The notes under the pieces are model-generated. The model searched no databases. It had not been told where the DNA came from and saw nothing but the letters and a program-made list of their open reading frames with translations. The translations under genes and the position numbers were made by a program. A stretch of DNA of 24,043 nt, from positions 1 to 24,043 of the IMG/VR virus record IMGVR_UViG_3300034105_002183. One strand, given 5' to 3'. This DNA is from a virus. Positions 7,664 through 24,043 of the stretch are shown here, in pieces (the first letter of the stretch is position 1; each line of letters begins with the position of its first letter).

Positions 7664-8410
7664 TTATTGTGTTATAGATAATTTCTTATCTACAAGCTGT
7701 GTTTTTAATTTTAATAACTTCTCAATATACCCATTTCTTCTAAGTAATTTGAATGTTAGGTTTTCATATGAATACTCTCCTCCCGATTCTAAACCACCCT
7801 GTCTGAACTCTTTTAACTTCTTTCTTAACTCTTCAATATCTTCTATTGGGCCTCCTTTTTTAACAATAGAATCTATTTTTTTCATATATTCCTCAGATTT
7901 TTGTAAAATCATTCTATCATCAATATTGTGTTTTGATTTGTTAGGTTCGATAATCCAATTATTATGTAAAATAGAATATACGCCAGAAGAAACGTGTTCC
8001 TCATCGATATCTTGGACATAGAGTTCAACATCAAATCCTTTAATTACAATATCATGTTTTTCATTCCAAACGTTTTTCTTCGCATCAAAAAACTCCTTTA
8101 ATAAATCTAAATTATAATCTGTTTCCTTAAAATCAATCAAAATGTGTAAATCAACATCCGAATAACTGGACCAATTATAATTTGATAATGAACCAGTTAA
8201 AACAACATCGTGTATGAAAAATTCAACCCCCAGTGTATCAATAAACTCATCTGCTATTTTTAACAAGGTTTTTCTTATCTCCTCACGCATAACAAAAGAC
8301 TTACCATCCTCCTCAAATATTTGATTAGATAATATGTCTTTTGGTTTAAAAGATTTTACAATCTTTTCATCTCCCACCTTGTCTTCAATCAGTTCTTCAA
8401 ATAAACTCAT
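7664..8410 (-). CDS. Nucleotidyltransferase-fold protein (Pol beta superfamily)
   Basis: The 248-aa product has the nucleotidyltransferase signature: G73-S74 in VVLTGSLSNY, followed by D85-x-D87 in YSDVDLHILID, and a third acidic residue D127 in GFDVELYV. These are the metal- and nucleotide-binding residues of Pol beta-type transferases, which move NMP to protein, RNA or small-molecule acceptors. The rest is helical and charged, with KLLRRNGYIEKLLKLK near the C-terminus. The acceptor cannot be told; it is clearly not a full CCA-adding enzyme or DNA polymerase. Its ATG overlaps the stop of the KTSC gene by 4 nt, so the two are probably translated together. Related genes occur in other T4-like phages, as far as I recall. 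Confidence 0.85.
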   Translation of the reverse strand: MSLFEELIEDKVGDEKIVKSFKPKDILSNQIFEEDGKSFVMREEIRKTLLKIADEFIDTLGVEFFIHDVVLTGSLSNYNWSSYSDVDLHILIDFKETDYNLDLLKEFFDAKKNVWNEKHDIVIKGFDVELYVQDIDEEHVSSGVYSILHNNWIIEPNKSKHNIDDRMILQKSEEYMKKIDSIVKKGGPIEDIEELRKKLKEFRQGGLESGGEYSYENLTFKLLRRNGYIEKLLKLKTQLVDKKLSITQ

Positions 8411-11924: not shown

Positions 11925-12353
11925 ATGGATACAAAAATACAAAACGAAGGTGATTTAATACTTCTTAGAGGTGTTCCCGGTTCGGGTAAAACAACATTAG
12001 CAAATATTATATTACAACAACCAAACAACAACCCACAAGAAGTTTTATCTGCGGATGATTTTTTTGTTAACGATGATGGTGATTATATTTTTGACGGTAC
12101 CAAAATAAAAGAGGCTCACAACTATTGTCAATTTAGATGTTCAGAAAGAATGAGACAGGGAATTGCACGTATAGTTGTTGCAAATACATTTACCCAAGAA
12201 TGGGAAATGAAAACTTATTTTGAAATGGCTGAAAGATACAATTACCGAGTACATTGTTTAGTTGTTGAAAACAGACATGGTAATGAAAATATTCACGGAG
12301 TTCCCGAAAATAAACTTCAACAAATGAAGGATAGGTTTGAAATAAAGTTATAG
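11925..12353 (+). CDS. P-loop polynucleotide 5'-kinase-like protein
   Basis: A 142-aa single-domain P-loop kinase of the AAA_33 / N4BP2-like / T4 Pnkp-kinase type. It has Walker A RGVPGSGKTT (15-24), the SADDFF segment (42-47) that matches the catalytic Asp region of T4 Pnkp, and a late segment NIHGVPENKLQQMKDRFE (122-139), typical of the N4BP2-like branch. The likely reaction is ATP-dependent phosphorylation of the 5'-OH end of broken RNA. Unlike T4 Pnkp (301 aa) it has no HAD-type 3'-phosphatase domain. The next ATG follows its stop codon with no gap, and an RNA ligase and a cREC protein lie downstream in the same operon, which strongly supports an RNA-repair role over a generic nucleotide kinase. 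Confidence 0.82.
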   Translation: MDTKIQNEGDLILLRGVPGSGKTTLANIILQQPNNNPQEVLSADDFFVNDDGDYIFDGTKIKEAHNYCQFRCSERMRQGIARIVVANTFTQEWEMKTYFEMAERYNYRVHCLVVENRHGNENIHGVPENKLQQMKDRFEIKL

Positions 12354-12599
12354 ATGAGTCAATTTATTGAATCTTATTTTAAAACAACTTCACCAAAAAA
12401 AACAAAAATGAAATTTTCTTCACATTTATTTAAAAACCAATGGGCAGTATACCCATTACCTTTTGCTTATCTTTATTTTGAAACATGTGAACCAGAATCA
12501 CATAAATCATTACTTCAAAACAAAATATGTGCGGTGTATATGTCGTTTAATTGGTTAAAGTGGACTTACAATATTGGATTTTATAAACCTATTAAATAA
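12354..12599 (+). CDS. Orphan protein inside RNA-repair operon (81 aa)
   Basis: The ATG follows the kinase stop directly, and its TAA overlaps the ligase ATG by one base, so it is translationally coupled on both sides. The product is basic and aromatic: a Lys-rich N-terminal part (SPKKTKMKFSSHLFKNQW), then PLPFAYLYFETCEPES, and a Trp/Tyr-rich C-terminus (FNWLKWTYNIGFYKPIK). No signal peptide or membrane helix is evident and I recognise no family. Its composition would suit RNA binding, and its position between kinase and ligase suggests a substrate-recognition or accessory subunit, but this is inference only. Confidence 0.75.
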   Translation: MSQFIESYFKTTSPKKTKMKFSSHLFKNQWAVYPLPFAYLYFETCEPESHKSLLQNKICAVYMSFNWLKWTYNIGFYKPIK

Positions 12600-13777
12600 T
12601 GTTGGAAATTTTACAGAAATACCATACTGATGGTTTGTTACATAAACAAACTCACCCAACTCTTGATTTAACTATTTGGAATTATAGTCCAAAAGTTCAA
12701 TATGAAAGATTATGGGATGAGATTACTTTGCAATGTCGTGGATTGGTAACCAATTCAAAAGGAGAAATTGTTGCGAGACCATTTAAGAAATTCTTTAACT
12801 ACGAAGAACATAAACCAGAAGATATCCCTAATGAAGATTATGTTGTCTATGAAAAAATGGATGGTTCATTAGGTATTCTCTTTTATTACGAATATGAATT
12901 AAGTGAAGAGAGAAGATATAACATATGGTTTAATAACAATTATGAAACGGGTATGGAAAGGTTTTTTGACCCAAACAATTTACCTGATTTTGATAATCCG
13001 TATTATGAACCAACCCCAAAAACAAAAGGTGAATGGATATTGGCAACACGAGGTTCATTCACATCACCACAAGCAATCAAAGGAAAAGAAATACTTGATA
13101 GGCACGATATTAGTGCAATAAGAAAAGACAACACATATTTATTTGAAATTATTTATCCCGAAAATAGAATTGTTGTTGATTATAAAGGTGAAGAAAAATT
13201 AGTGGTACTTGGCGCCATTCATACCGACACCGGTGAGGAGATTCCTGACAGTTCAATATTTTGGTTACAAGATTGTGGATTTGAAGTTGTAACAACATAC
13301 AAGACTTGGGGTGAGGGATATGACTTACTTAAAGAAGAAATTAGTAAAGATAGAGAAGGTTATGTAATTCGTTTTAAAAATGGTTTTCGTATGAAAATCA
13401 AAGGAGATGAATATAAACGTTTACATAGAATTTTAACCAACATATCAAACAGAGATATTTTTGAATATGTTAAGGAAGGTAAACCATTAGACGAGATTTT
13501 AGATAAAGTACCTGACGAATTTTATAATTGGGTTAAAGAAACAAAAGAACTATTTGAACAGCAGTTTAAAACAATTAACTTAGAGTATAAATTGATATTT
13601 AAAAATATAGTAGAAAATAATAATATTACAGATAAAAAAACTTTTGCACATTACGCTTTAAGTTATAATAACTCTTCTATATTATTCGCAATGAATGACG
13701 GTAAACCATATGATCATATTATATGGAAAATAATTTATCCAACGTACTCAAAACCATTTAAGAAAGATGAAAATTAA
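12599..13777 (+). CDS. rnlA: T4 RNA ligase 1 (RnlA)-like ATP-dependent RNA ligase
   Basis: A covalent nucleotidyltransferase that seals 5'-phosphate and 3'-OH RNA ends. The 392-aa product (T4 RnlA is 374) has the ligase motifs in order: motif I YEKMDGSL with catalytic K86, motif Ia-like TRGSF (150-154), motif III YLFEIIYPENRIVVDY with E183, motif IV EGYVIRF (253-259) and motif V MKIKGDEYKRLH with K266 and K268. The upstream CRGLV (46-50) and the FEIIYPENRIV block are characteristic of the Rnl1 rather than the Rnl2 branch. The C-terminal 120 residues are helical, as in the T4 enzyme's tRNA-specificity domain. Its start overlaps the previous stop by one base, and its end overlaps the cREC gene by 11 bp. 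Likely substrate: tRNAs cut by a host anticodon nuclease. Confidence 0.92.
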   Translation: MLEILQKYHTDGLLHKQTHPTLDLTIWNYSPKVQYERLWDEITLQCRGLVTNSKGEIVARPFKKFFNYEEHKPEDIPNEDYVVYEKMDGSLGILFYYEYELSEERRYNIWFNNNYETGMERFFDPNNLPDFDNPYYEPTPKTKGEWILATRGSFTSPQAIKGKEILDRHDISAIRKDNTYLFEIIYPENRIVVDYKGEEKLVVLGAIHTDTGEEIPDSSIFWLQDCGFEVVTTYKTWGEGYDLLKEEISKDREGYVIRFKNGFRMKIKGDEYKRLHRILTNISNRDIFEYVKEGKPLDEILDKVPDEFYNWVKETKELFEQQFKTINLEYKLIFKNIVENNNITDKKTFAHYALSYNNSSILFAMNDGKPYDHIIWKIIYPTYSKPFKKDEN

Positions 13778-14249
13778 CAATAAATTGAGATTATATCTTG
13801 ATGATATAAGAACTCCGATTGCAAACGATTGGATAATTGCACGTAATTATGATGAATTTGTGGCAGCAATTAAATTACATGGGTTAGGTAATTTTGAAGT
13901 AATATCTTTGGATCATGATTTGGGTGAAGGTGCAATGATTGAATATTATACAAATGTAAAAAATAATTATATGTTGGATTATAACAACATAGAAGAAAGA
14001 ACTGGAATGGATTGTTGTAGATATTTGGTGAGTGAAAGTATGAATCAGAATATTCCTTTACCTCAAATATATGTACATTCAGCAAATCCAATAGGTGCCG
14101 CAAATATGATGGGTTACATTAACAATTATTTTATGAATTGTAGAACTCCCCAATCCTGTATAAGAGTTAAAATTGAACATACGATTGATGAATCATTAAA
14201 ACTTTCTGATGAAGTTAGAAAGGCTAAATGGGATAGAACAAAAAATTGA
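13767..14249 (+). CDS. Cyclic-phosphate-processing receiver-like (cREC) protein
   Basis: The 160-aa product looks like a divergent receiver fold: LRLYLDDIRTP (7-17), EVISLDHDLGEG (44-55) and IYVHSANPIGAANMMGYINN (101-120). The LDDxR, SLDHDLG and HSxNPxGxxNM signatures match the cREC (cyclic-phosphate processing receiver) family, which comparative genomics places in RNA-repair operons and predicts to act on 2',3'-cyclic phosphate ends. An insertion with Asn/Tyr-rich sequence (about 57-76) sits after the second motif. It overlaps the RNA ligase gene by 11 bp, so the two are translationally coupled. Here it would supply the 3'-end healing that the stand-alone kinase lacks. It is unlikely to be a two-component receiver, since there is no output domain or kinase nearby. 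The enzymatic activity is a prediction. Confidence 0.8.
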   Translation: MKINNKLRLYLDDIRTPIANDWIIARNYDEFVAAIKLHGLGNFEVISLDHDLGEGAMIEYYTNVKNNYMLDYNNIEERTGMDCCRYLVSESMNQNIPLPQIYVHSANPIGAANMMGYINNYFMNCRTPQSCIRVKIEHTIDESLKLSDEVRKAKWDRTKN

Positions 14250-21627: not shown

Positions 21628-24043
21628 TTAGTTTATTTTTATTTTTAATGTTTTTCCATCTTTATTAACTGCGTCCGTTGAACCTATTGAAATTAAACCC
21701 AATATGTTATCTAATTTTGTGTTTGACGAAAATGAAATCTTATATGCTGTCATTTTATCCAAACTTGTACTACCATCACTTACTAAAGAACCTAAATTGA
21801 TGTAATCACCCTTATCACTTGCGTAGTTAGTAGGTGAACCATTTGTAGTAAATTGTATTCCTTTGAACTTTAACACCGAATTATCATAGTTTAATTGGAA
21901 TTGAGTACCTACTACATTTTGTTGTAATGGGTCTAATGTAATATATGCGTAAATACTATCTCCAATTACTTCAGTCAAAATAGAGGCATTTATTTCATTT
22001 AATATTGGTGTACTCATTGATGTTCTAACCGACATCGTAGTTATATTATTTGAGGGAGGTGTTGATGAATGTGATAAGTTCACATCACCTTTCCAACTAA
22101 CAGCCAAATCATAGTTATAATTTATTACATTATCTAATAAACTAAAATTATAAGTCTTTCCTGTAAAATTTTGAAATGATTTCCAAGTACTTTTACCAAT
22201 TAAATTATAAATCGAATCTGGTATTAATCTAATTGTGTTATCTAATGTGTAAGTACTAACTAAATCTTGAACACCCGTTAGGTTTTGTAATAACTTAAAA
22301 CAATCTGCCTCATTGAAAACACCGTTGTCATCAACATCTGCATTTTTATATTGAATACCGTATGTAAATTCATTACCACTTTGGTTTCCAAATATACCTG
22401 TATTAGCAACTTCCTTGAATGCTAGATAAACATCAGATACGGTTACAATACTATTATATAATGTTTTCAATTGATTAGCATCGTATTCTTGTAACTCCAT
22501 TTTATGTTGTTTAAATGCACCAACTTGTGCAAATCCAAACTCCACTTTTACCCCATAGAACCCATTTGCACTTCTTAAATTTGATGAATATGATGAACCT
22601 GTATAATTAAATTGAGTTGATGTATAAATATAATATTCGGCCCAACCATTTGCATCATATGAATTATATGTTACAGGACCATCCCATAAATCTAATAATT
22701 TTAATTTAGTTACATTATTTGGTTCTACATTCGTTCCTACAAATTCTCTTGCATCCACACCGACTCTATATCTACCATTAGTTGCATCATAATCATAAAT
22801 TACGCACCACTCAGTTTGACCAGGAGATGCAGTTGCTTTGTATGATGCTGGTGGTGACACAAACTGATAACTTAGTCCCCATCCACCATAACCTGATGTT
22901 GATACTCCATTACGAGTTGAACCAATATATTCATTTAACCCTTGTACTACTTTAATGTAAACTTCTTTTGTTTGTCCATTTGATATAAAACCAGAGTGAA
23001 CTGCTGCCGCCGGAATATACGAATCACTTGTGTAGATATCAGTTCCCCATATTGATCCACCGGTTGCACCTGTTATTGTTATTCTATATATCTTACCAAT
23101 ATCTCCTTCGTTGAATTGTTGCATATCACTTACACCTGATAATGGTATACCCGATGTATATACTTTTGCGGTATCTATTTGATTCGAAAGATATACTTTA
23201 CCCAAACCACTTAATGATTTATAACCATCTGACGAAGTCCAACTTGAATTCGAATCATTTCTTTTGAATATTTGTGATAAGAACTTTGTTTTATCTATTG
23301 TACTATTAAACTTAAATCCAAATAAAGCTTTTATTGTTTCTCCGTTTGAGTGAGTTACTGAATTGGTATAAAATTCTGTAAATGTAGCGTTATCGGGGTT
23401 AGTCCAAGTTCCATATTCAATTACATACGGATTTGAAAAATGGTTTGGTAAATCATTCCATTGAGAACCACCACCCCATTTAGTTACTGCGTAATCTTCA
23501 TCACCACTATTGTTTGGTTCACCGGGTGCCCAGTTATTATATTGACCAACCATGTTACCATTTAATTGACCATTATTGATTTTAATTAGAGTTCCCTTTT
23601 CAGGTCCCGCATCAATTGTCCATCTAGCTTCACTTGCTTCATCGGTTAATGCAAACCAAATATTACCTTGTGGTACATTATTGAAAATAAATGCATCTTC
23701 ATCGGCAGAAGTAATTGTTACCAAATATCCCGTTTGTCCTTTGAATGTGGTTAATAGAGATGCCGCTCTTGCGTTCGTATAAGTTGCTCCGGTTGTTATT
23801 GGTCTGTAAAAGTGTCCGTTTACACCATTGTAATAATAACCAGTTGGGTTTACAGTTGCAGCTACCGAAATATTAATATCACCAATTATTGTTCCTGTGT
23901 TTATTTTTAGAGACGATAACGCAGTATTAATACTTGCCATTGTTCCAGTTACCACTAAACGAGTTTTATTACCACTTAAAGTAAATCCACTTGCTGCCGT
24001 TAAACCCGTTGTTGTGTTTAATACGAATGTTGTACCTGATGGT
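21628..24043 (-). CDS. Large modular adhesin with C-type lectin, dockerin-like and cohesin-like parts (partial)
   Basis: The frame is open to the right edge, so the N-terminus is missing; a GTG at 23955 is internal and not the likely start. The visible 804 or so residues begin with a beta module (GFTLSGNKTRLVVTGTMASI). Counting from that GTG, a C-type lectin domain spans about 38-184, with GYYYNGVNGHFY, the calcium/sugar motif WAPGEPNNSGDEDY (142-155), W-N-D (166-168) and PYVIEYG. The centre is a large beta-rich region of unknown type. Residues 540-551 (DVDDNGVFNEAD) form a dockerin/EF-hand-like loop, and about 666-775 resembles a cohesin (GTQFQLNYDNSVLKFKG). It may be a tail fibre or a secreted surface adhesin binding host glycans. 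It heads the envelope run. Confidence 0.82.
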   Translation of the reverse strand, partial: PSGTTFVLNTTTGLTAASGFTLSGNKTRLVVTGTMASINTALSSLKINTGTIIGDINISVAATVNPTGYYYNGVNGHFYRPITTGATYTNARAASLLTTFKGQTGYLVTITSADEDAFIFNNVPQGNIWFALTDEASEARWTIDAGPEKGTLIKINNGQLNGNMVGQYNNWAPGEPNNSGDEDYAVTKWGGGSQWNDLPNHFSNPYVIEYGTWTNPDNATFTEFYTNSVTHSNGETIKALFGFKFNSTIDKTKFLSQIFKRNDSNSSWTSSDGYKSLSGLGKVYLSNQIDTAKVYTSGIPLSGVSDMQQFNEGDIGKIYRITITGATGGSIWGTDIYTSDSYIPAAAVHSGFISNGQTKEVYIKVVQGLNEYIGSTRNGVSTSGYGGWGLSYQFVSPPASYKATASPGQTEWCVIYDYDATNGRYRVGVDAREFVGTNVEPNNVTKLKLLDLWDGPVTYNSYDANGWAEYYIYTSTQFNYTGSSYSSNLRSANGFYGVKVEFGFAQVGAFKQHKMELQEYDANQLKTLYNSIVTVSDVYLAFKEVANTGIFGNQSGNEFTYGIQYKNADVDDNGVFNEADCFKLLQNLTGVQDLVSTYTLDNTIRLIPDSIYNLIGKSTWKSFQNFTGKTYNFSLLDNVINYNYDLAVSWKGDVNLSHSSTPPSNNITTMSVRTSMSTPILNEINASILTEVIGDSIYAYITLDPLQQNVVGTQFQLNYDNSVLKFKGIQFTTNGSPTNYASDKGDYINLGSLVSDGSTSLDKMTAYKISFSSNTKLDNILGLISIGSTDAVNKDGKTLKIKIN

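Follow-up and report, generated by a model that had tools for sequence, protein, structure and literature searches.

A probable RNA end-healing and sealing cassette of stand-alone kinase, Rnl1-type ligase and cREC in a phage genome fragment

Bacterial Pnkp combines a kinase, a calcineurin-type phosphatase and a ligase in a single protein. It forms a complex with Hen1 (PMC4411300). In phage T4, tRNA repair as a counter-defence against PrrC pairs Pnkp, a P-loop 5'-kinase fused to a PNK3P HAD phosphatase, with the ligase Rnl1. T4 Pnk performs both the diesterase and the monoesterase step (PMC2610378). In V5-like phages a T4-like ligase, cREC (cyclic-phosphate processing Receiver), a nucleotide kinase, a sirtuin and sometimes a calcineurin-like phosphoesterase share one neighbourhood (PMC9503650), and jumbo phages have cREC-ligase operons (PMC7824862). 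The opening of cyclic phosphates by cREC is a published prediction (PMC7824862, PMC9503650), made for a protein that the 2022 paper calls experimentally uncharacterised (PMC9503650).

The window, meaning the whole stretch of DNA analysed here, is a 24,043-base virus record and a fragment, with 9.8 kb remaining 3' of cREC. It encodes a T4-type portal and terminase, the portal being nearest to those of Microcystis phage Mel-JY01 and immuto-group Flavobacterium phages and more distant from that of Rhodothermus RM378. Four genes make up the cassette and, as the sequence-only reading had described, they overlap or abut: the kinase gene ends directly before the orphan, the orphan shares 1 bp with the ligase gene, and ligase and cREC share 11 bp. 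Profile searches upheld the three gene identities given in that reading, namely a stand-alone kinase domain of 142 aa, an Rnl1 ligase and cREC.

11925-12353, + strand: predicted stand-alone 5'-OH polynucleotide kinase, 142 aa (Pfam AAA_33, 9.6e-16)
12354-12599, + strand: orphan, 81 aa, with a conserved N-terminus, MSQFIxSx (no Pfam or NCBIfam match)
12599-13777, + strand: T4 Rnl1-type RNA ligase, 392 aa (RNA_lig_T4_1, 1.7e-16; phrog_562, 1.2e-69)
13767-14249, + strand: cREC, 160 aa (PF20274, 1.7e-23)

Like the Vequintavirinae (Escherichia V5, Mydo-type; PMC9503650), the window brings together a ligase, cREC and a stand-alone kinase. The published linkage was reproduced in Vequintavirus I29 and Mydovirus KB57, which carry ligase, cREC, kinase, a calcineurin-type phosphoesterase (MPE-A) and Sir2, with cREC directly 3' of the ligase, a 4-bp overlap and MPE-A nearby. 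Unlike the Vequintavirinae, the window lineage has no Sir2 (26 records), places an 81-aa orphan between kinase and ligase, and has MPE-A away from the cluster. The jumbo-phage operons (PMC7824862) likewise hold cREC of the identical Pfam family in an operon with an RNA ligase; the window set is fuller, with kinase and orphan, and its lineage is Bacteroidota-phage-like. The cassette is thus a member of a known phage RNA-repair type and not a new repair strategy, and the proposal of a distinct phage answer is not supported. The likeness to bacterial Pnkp lies in the three predicted activities and in the calcineurin-type phosphoesterase, the candidate 3' healing enzyme of relatives. Unlike in bacterial Pnkp, kinase and ligase have a gene each, the ligase belongs to the Rnl1 type, and the cassette contains no phosphoesterase; Hen1 had no match among the neighbouring proteins scanned.

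The kinase carries a P-loop, GVPGSGKT (G16-T23), and SADD at 42-45, with G19, G21, K22 and D44 invariant in 36 homologues. It is far closer to phrog_2071 (1.3e-39) than to phrog_505, 'polynucleotide kinase' (1.2e-7), and its homologue in I29 bears the depositor's label 'NEDD4-binding protein 2 domain containing'. As in T4, a P-loop 5'-kinase is found with an Rnl1 ligase that has the C-terminal domain; unlike T4 Pnkp, the window kinase is small, separate and without a fused PNK3P HAD phosphatase domain. Membership of the T4-type Pnkp family was rejected on the length of the ORF, on its different PHROG family and on the absence of T4-type PNK3P from 24 of the 25 long relatives, the remaining one giving a weak match in a 115-aa frame.

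The 81-aa orphan is characteristic of the window lineage and is conserved across 19 homologues. It had no strong PHROG match, and a fold search of the PDB with a low-confidence model (pLDDT 69) gave no match at E<=0.001. In many relatives the orphan slot instead holds a frame of 37-46 aa (e.g. locus L003:5934-6068), which shares the N-terminus of the orphan (MSQFIESF..S.NP) and overlaps the ligase start in another frame. Over the first ten codons of this short frame the differences fall mostly at third positions, which suggests that it is translated.

All four nucleotidyltransferase motifs sought in the ligase (I, III, IV and V) are present, as K86-x-D-G, FEIIYPENRI, EGYV and KIKGDEY, and the key residues are invariant in 36 homologues. 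The Rnl1-specific C-terminal domain is also present, the ligase family profile matching T4 Rnl1 (2c5u) at 1.8e-18 through residue 369/375. Against TIGR02308 the ligase scored 2e-22, under that equivalog's own cut-off. By motifs and C-terminal domain it is assigned to the T4 Rnl1 type (PF09511), for which sealing of 5'-P to 3'-OH ends is predicted.

Ligase and cREC searches of viral contigs returned 159 loci, and the gene order that the sequence-only reading had proposed to look for is repeated across dozens of contigs from related phages. The dominant order was kinase-orphan-ligase-cREC or kinase-ligase-cREC, with 64 loci including the orphan and 45 without it (one contig's loci may count twice). 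Usually a Clp-type ATPase gene and a small lipoprotein-like gene flank the cassette on one side and a conserved downstream gene on the other. The 11-bp overlap of ligase and cREC is shared by 81 related loci, and a further 23 have an overlap of 8 bp, a recurrence showing that the layout is not accidental.

When the neighbours of cREC in sister loci were scanned with Pfam, metallophosphoesterases came to light, two groups of which are relevant, MPE-A (~217-226 aa) and MPE-B (~230-260 aa). MPE-A lies within or beside the cluster in many relatives, and further orders were kinase-x-MPE-A-ligase-cREC, MPE-A-kinase-ligase, cREC-MPE-A-kinase-ligase, cREC-MPE-A-ligase and MPE-A-cREC-kinase-ligase. Since the dominant order largely reflects common descent, this variety is the stronger evidence for a functional set. 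An independent scan seeded with MPE-A alone gave 80 loci, which were profiled for kinase, ligase, cREC and MPE-B; a kinase, ligase or cREC homologue lay <=6 kb from MPE-A in 43 of them, in varied orders. Among named phages, whose gene sets were backed by profile search, Vibrio phage Cody (L345) has ligase, kinase, one small gene and MPE-A, then genes for PRPP synthetase and nicotinate phosphoribosyltransferase, Pseudomonas phage Pyxpy02 (L346) has MPE-A, ligase, kinase and NAD-salvage genes, and Aeromonas phage phiA019 has MPE-A, ligase and kinase. PHROG 8238, an 'RNA ligase' of 737 positions, is matched by the kinase at positions 4-109 and by the ligase from 429, and MPE-A gave a weak match between these parts (195-250, E 0.0054), suggesting that other phages may carry a fused kinase-phosphoesterase-ligase.

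The PHROG label of the ligase family, RNA ligase and tail fibre attachment catalyst, recalls T4 gp63, which also acts in tail-fibre attachment, and the window homologue could have that role beside unrelated neighbours. We regard this as very improbable. Every catalytic motif of the ligase is retained, a kinase stands alongside it almost everywhere and phosphoesterases accompany it in many orders, and its neighbours in the window are a Clp-type ATPase and small proteins, with tail fibres not among them.

Elsewhere in the window, a minus-strand protein at 7664-8410 had sub-threshold matches to nucleotidyltransferases (Pol-beta type) and a strong match to phrog_36119 (unknown function); it could be an RNA-repair nucleotidyltransferase. 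A large open frame at 21628-24042 (-), with LCCL, C-type lectin-like and cohesin-like matches, probably encodes a structural or receptor-binding protein. The window contains no tRNA genes, and Pfam scans of its proteins gave no match to Sir2.

No phosphoesterase was recognised in the 24-kb fragment, and the sequence-only reading had called the HAD phosphatase missing, which was not confirmed. Viral records are often fragments, short metagenomic ones can give the impression of an incomplete pathway, and longer relatives with the window layout encode both a SAK-type ('Swiss army knife') HAD phosphatase and metallophosphoesterases away from the cassette. MPE-A was detected in three window-layout records (G005, G006 and G009), G005 and G006 apparently representing a single virus or two almost identical ones. 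The SAK-HAD gene occurs in these three and also in G002, G010, G016 and G024, ~4-10 kb from MPE-A. MPE-B, whose profile matched MPPED2 structures at 6e-66, lies ~16-24 kb downstream of cREC in nine window-layout records (eight directly; G006 if its ends are joined) and was not found in G031, which covers ~26 kb downstream; four related records that lack cREC carry it as well. MPPED enzymes favour 2',3'-cAMP as substrate and leave monoesters uncleaved (PMC10547211), hence MPE-B alone would not be expected to yield a 3'-OH. A search for characterised MPE-A homologues found none, the sole PDB match being aq_1665, a hypothetical protein. Directly 5' of MPE-A lies a conserved protein of ~165 aa (MGTNYY/MSTNYY...) in L286:5499-5999, L265:5502-5999 and L281:5498-6001; the L286 copy has no Pfam match.

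The closest long relatives, G001 and G014, do not reach the positions that MPE-A, MPE-B and SAK-HAD occupy in G006 and G009. We infer that the window's own phage encodes these genes too, the map position placing them outside the fragment. The phosphatase elsewhere in the phage that had been named as evidence against cREC as the substitute was accordingly found in window-layout relatives, the window itself being a fragment. Two other routes were considered and rejected. Removal of a 2'-phosphate based on Sir2 or KptA would need genes that the long relatives do not have (no Sir2 in 26, no KptA in 25), and 2H phosphoesterases, as a general alternative, gave weak matches in 4 of 25.

The cREC protein scored 83.6 bits against PF20274, for which the curated Pfam cut-off is 27. 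In a 37-sequence alignment D12, D13, D49, H50, D51, H104, S105, N107 and H138 are invariant, with the receiver-type aspartates D12, D13, D49 and D51 kept in 37/37. An AlphaFold2 model was confident (pLDDT 94.6) and resembled receiver domains weakly, the best match being GacS D1 (E 0.024, prob 0.94, TM 0.43-0.51); a sequence search of the PDB found no relative. We know of no receiver-fold enzyme shown to open RNA 2',3'-cyclic phosphate ends.

These data bear on the earlier view of cREC as the natural substitute for the phosphatase. In its strongest form cREC would be a complete 3'-end healer, opening the cyclic phosphate and also removing the phosphate, with no phosphatase needed. The 8-11 bp ligase overlap in about 100 loci, the invariant catalytic-type aspartates and the scarcity of T4-type PNK3P among long relatives are in keeping with such a role. 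We nevertheless consider it improbable. The predicted activity is linearising only (PMC7824862, PMC9503650), so that a linear 3'-phosphate would still block Rnl1; relatives, window-layout ones included, carry MPE-A, MPE-B and SAK-HAD; and in several lineages kinase and ligase persist where cREC is absent. In a 72-ligase tree, cREC presence changed 8 times by parsimony, at least 4 of these changes being forced on well-supported branches, and cREC had no match in 7 long records, the largest of 251 kb, that contain kinase and ligase. Where cREC is absent MPE-A completes the kinase-ligase pair, as in L068, L069, L074 and L075. A gene replacing cREC was also sought in cREC-less relatives, and the sole annotated insert (L024) encodes an SPFH/Band_7 protein, not a phosphodiesterase. 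The substitution is therefore not upheld.

Conversely, two records have cREC but no member of the two RNA-ligase families: the complete genome of Flavobacterium phage immuto and the 199-kb record G024. That kinase-ligase and cREC each occur apart fits an accessory role for cREC, or a role beyond ligation. In the second case cREC might leave RNA ends alone and cleave the cyclic phosphate of a small nucleotide, either ADP-ribose cyclic phosphate or a signal in immunity, being merely co-transcribed with the repair genes in a counter-defence block; we consider this possible though doubtful. Besides the two records that lack both RNA-ligase families, its neighbours point this way: in RaK2 cREC adjoins Sir2, Nudix and NAMPT, in a Cellulophaga phage it lies a few genes from a macro-domain gene, and NAD-salvage genes are neighbours of the repair genes in L153, Cody and Pyxpy02. 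Against it stand the tight cREC-ligase junction across distant phages, I29 and KB57 included, and the lack of KptA and Sir2, possible makers of ADP-ribose cyclic phosphate, in the 25-26 long relatives searched. Cellular relatives of cREC had no kinase, ligase, MPE-A or MPE-B nearby, as judged with phage-built profiles. That cREC is instead a receiver-fold 2',3'-cyclic phosphodiesterase acting on RNA ends, which would pass linear phosphate ends to a separate phosphatase, is a reading we consider possible, if less likely than not.

For the locus as a whole, we think it likely that it belongs to a phage system for healing and sealing RNA ends, in which kinase and ligase stand alone, phosphoesterases are encoded elsewhere and cREC is an optional accessory. 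The RNA-repair interpretation of the sequence-only reading is thus supported for a conserved kinase/Rnl1-type ligase/cREC cassette found in many phages, without the cREC substitution or the distinctness. The analysis establishes what the genes are, that their linkage is conserved, that relatives carry phosphoesterases and that kinase-ligase pairs repeatedly have no cREC beside them; we infer all enzyme activities and substrates, those of the cassette and of the phosphoesterases alike. The target would most likely be damage by host RNases, anticodon nucleases for example, whose cuts produce 2',3'-cyclic-phosphate and 5'-OH ends. The kinase would phosphorylate 5'-OH ends, the 3' end would be cleared mainly by MPE-A, the MPPED2-like MPE-B and/or the SAK-type HAD phosphatase, encoded outside the fragment, and the Rnl1-type ligase would join 5'-phosphate to 3'-OH. 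cREC would be optional, probably opening a cyclic phosphate on RNA ends or on a small nucleotide, and would not be the sole 3' healer. MPE-A, widespread in phages, is pointed to as the likely healing partner. Natural kinase-ligase sets, some with cREC nearby, some with MPE-A, some with both and some with neither, offer a test bed for the role of each 3'-end enzyme.

Some loci showed further features. In L153:7665-10035, as in Cody and Pyxpy02, which are unrelated phages, PRPP-synthetase-like and nicotin(amid)ate phosphoribosyltransferase genes lie beside the repair genes and resemble the NARP1 pathway. Locus L002 (1275-2048), whose ligase is identical to that of the window, has a GIY-YIG/NUMOD1 homing endonuclease gene between ligase and cREC. 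The ligase gene is split by inserts of ~0.9-1.1 kb in L143 (3033-5358), L332 and L338, and LAGLIDADG and NUMOD3 proteins are encoded before and within the ligase gene of L143. A search for the intron family in the interrupted loci gave no Rfam match at the gathering threshold. Near the interrupted ligase locus of L338, a GOLLD RNA (325 bits) is followed by a tRNA gene (L338:5852-6333).
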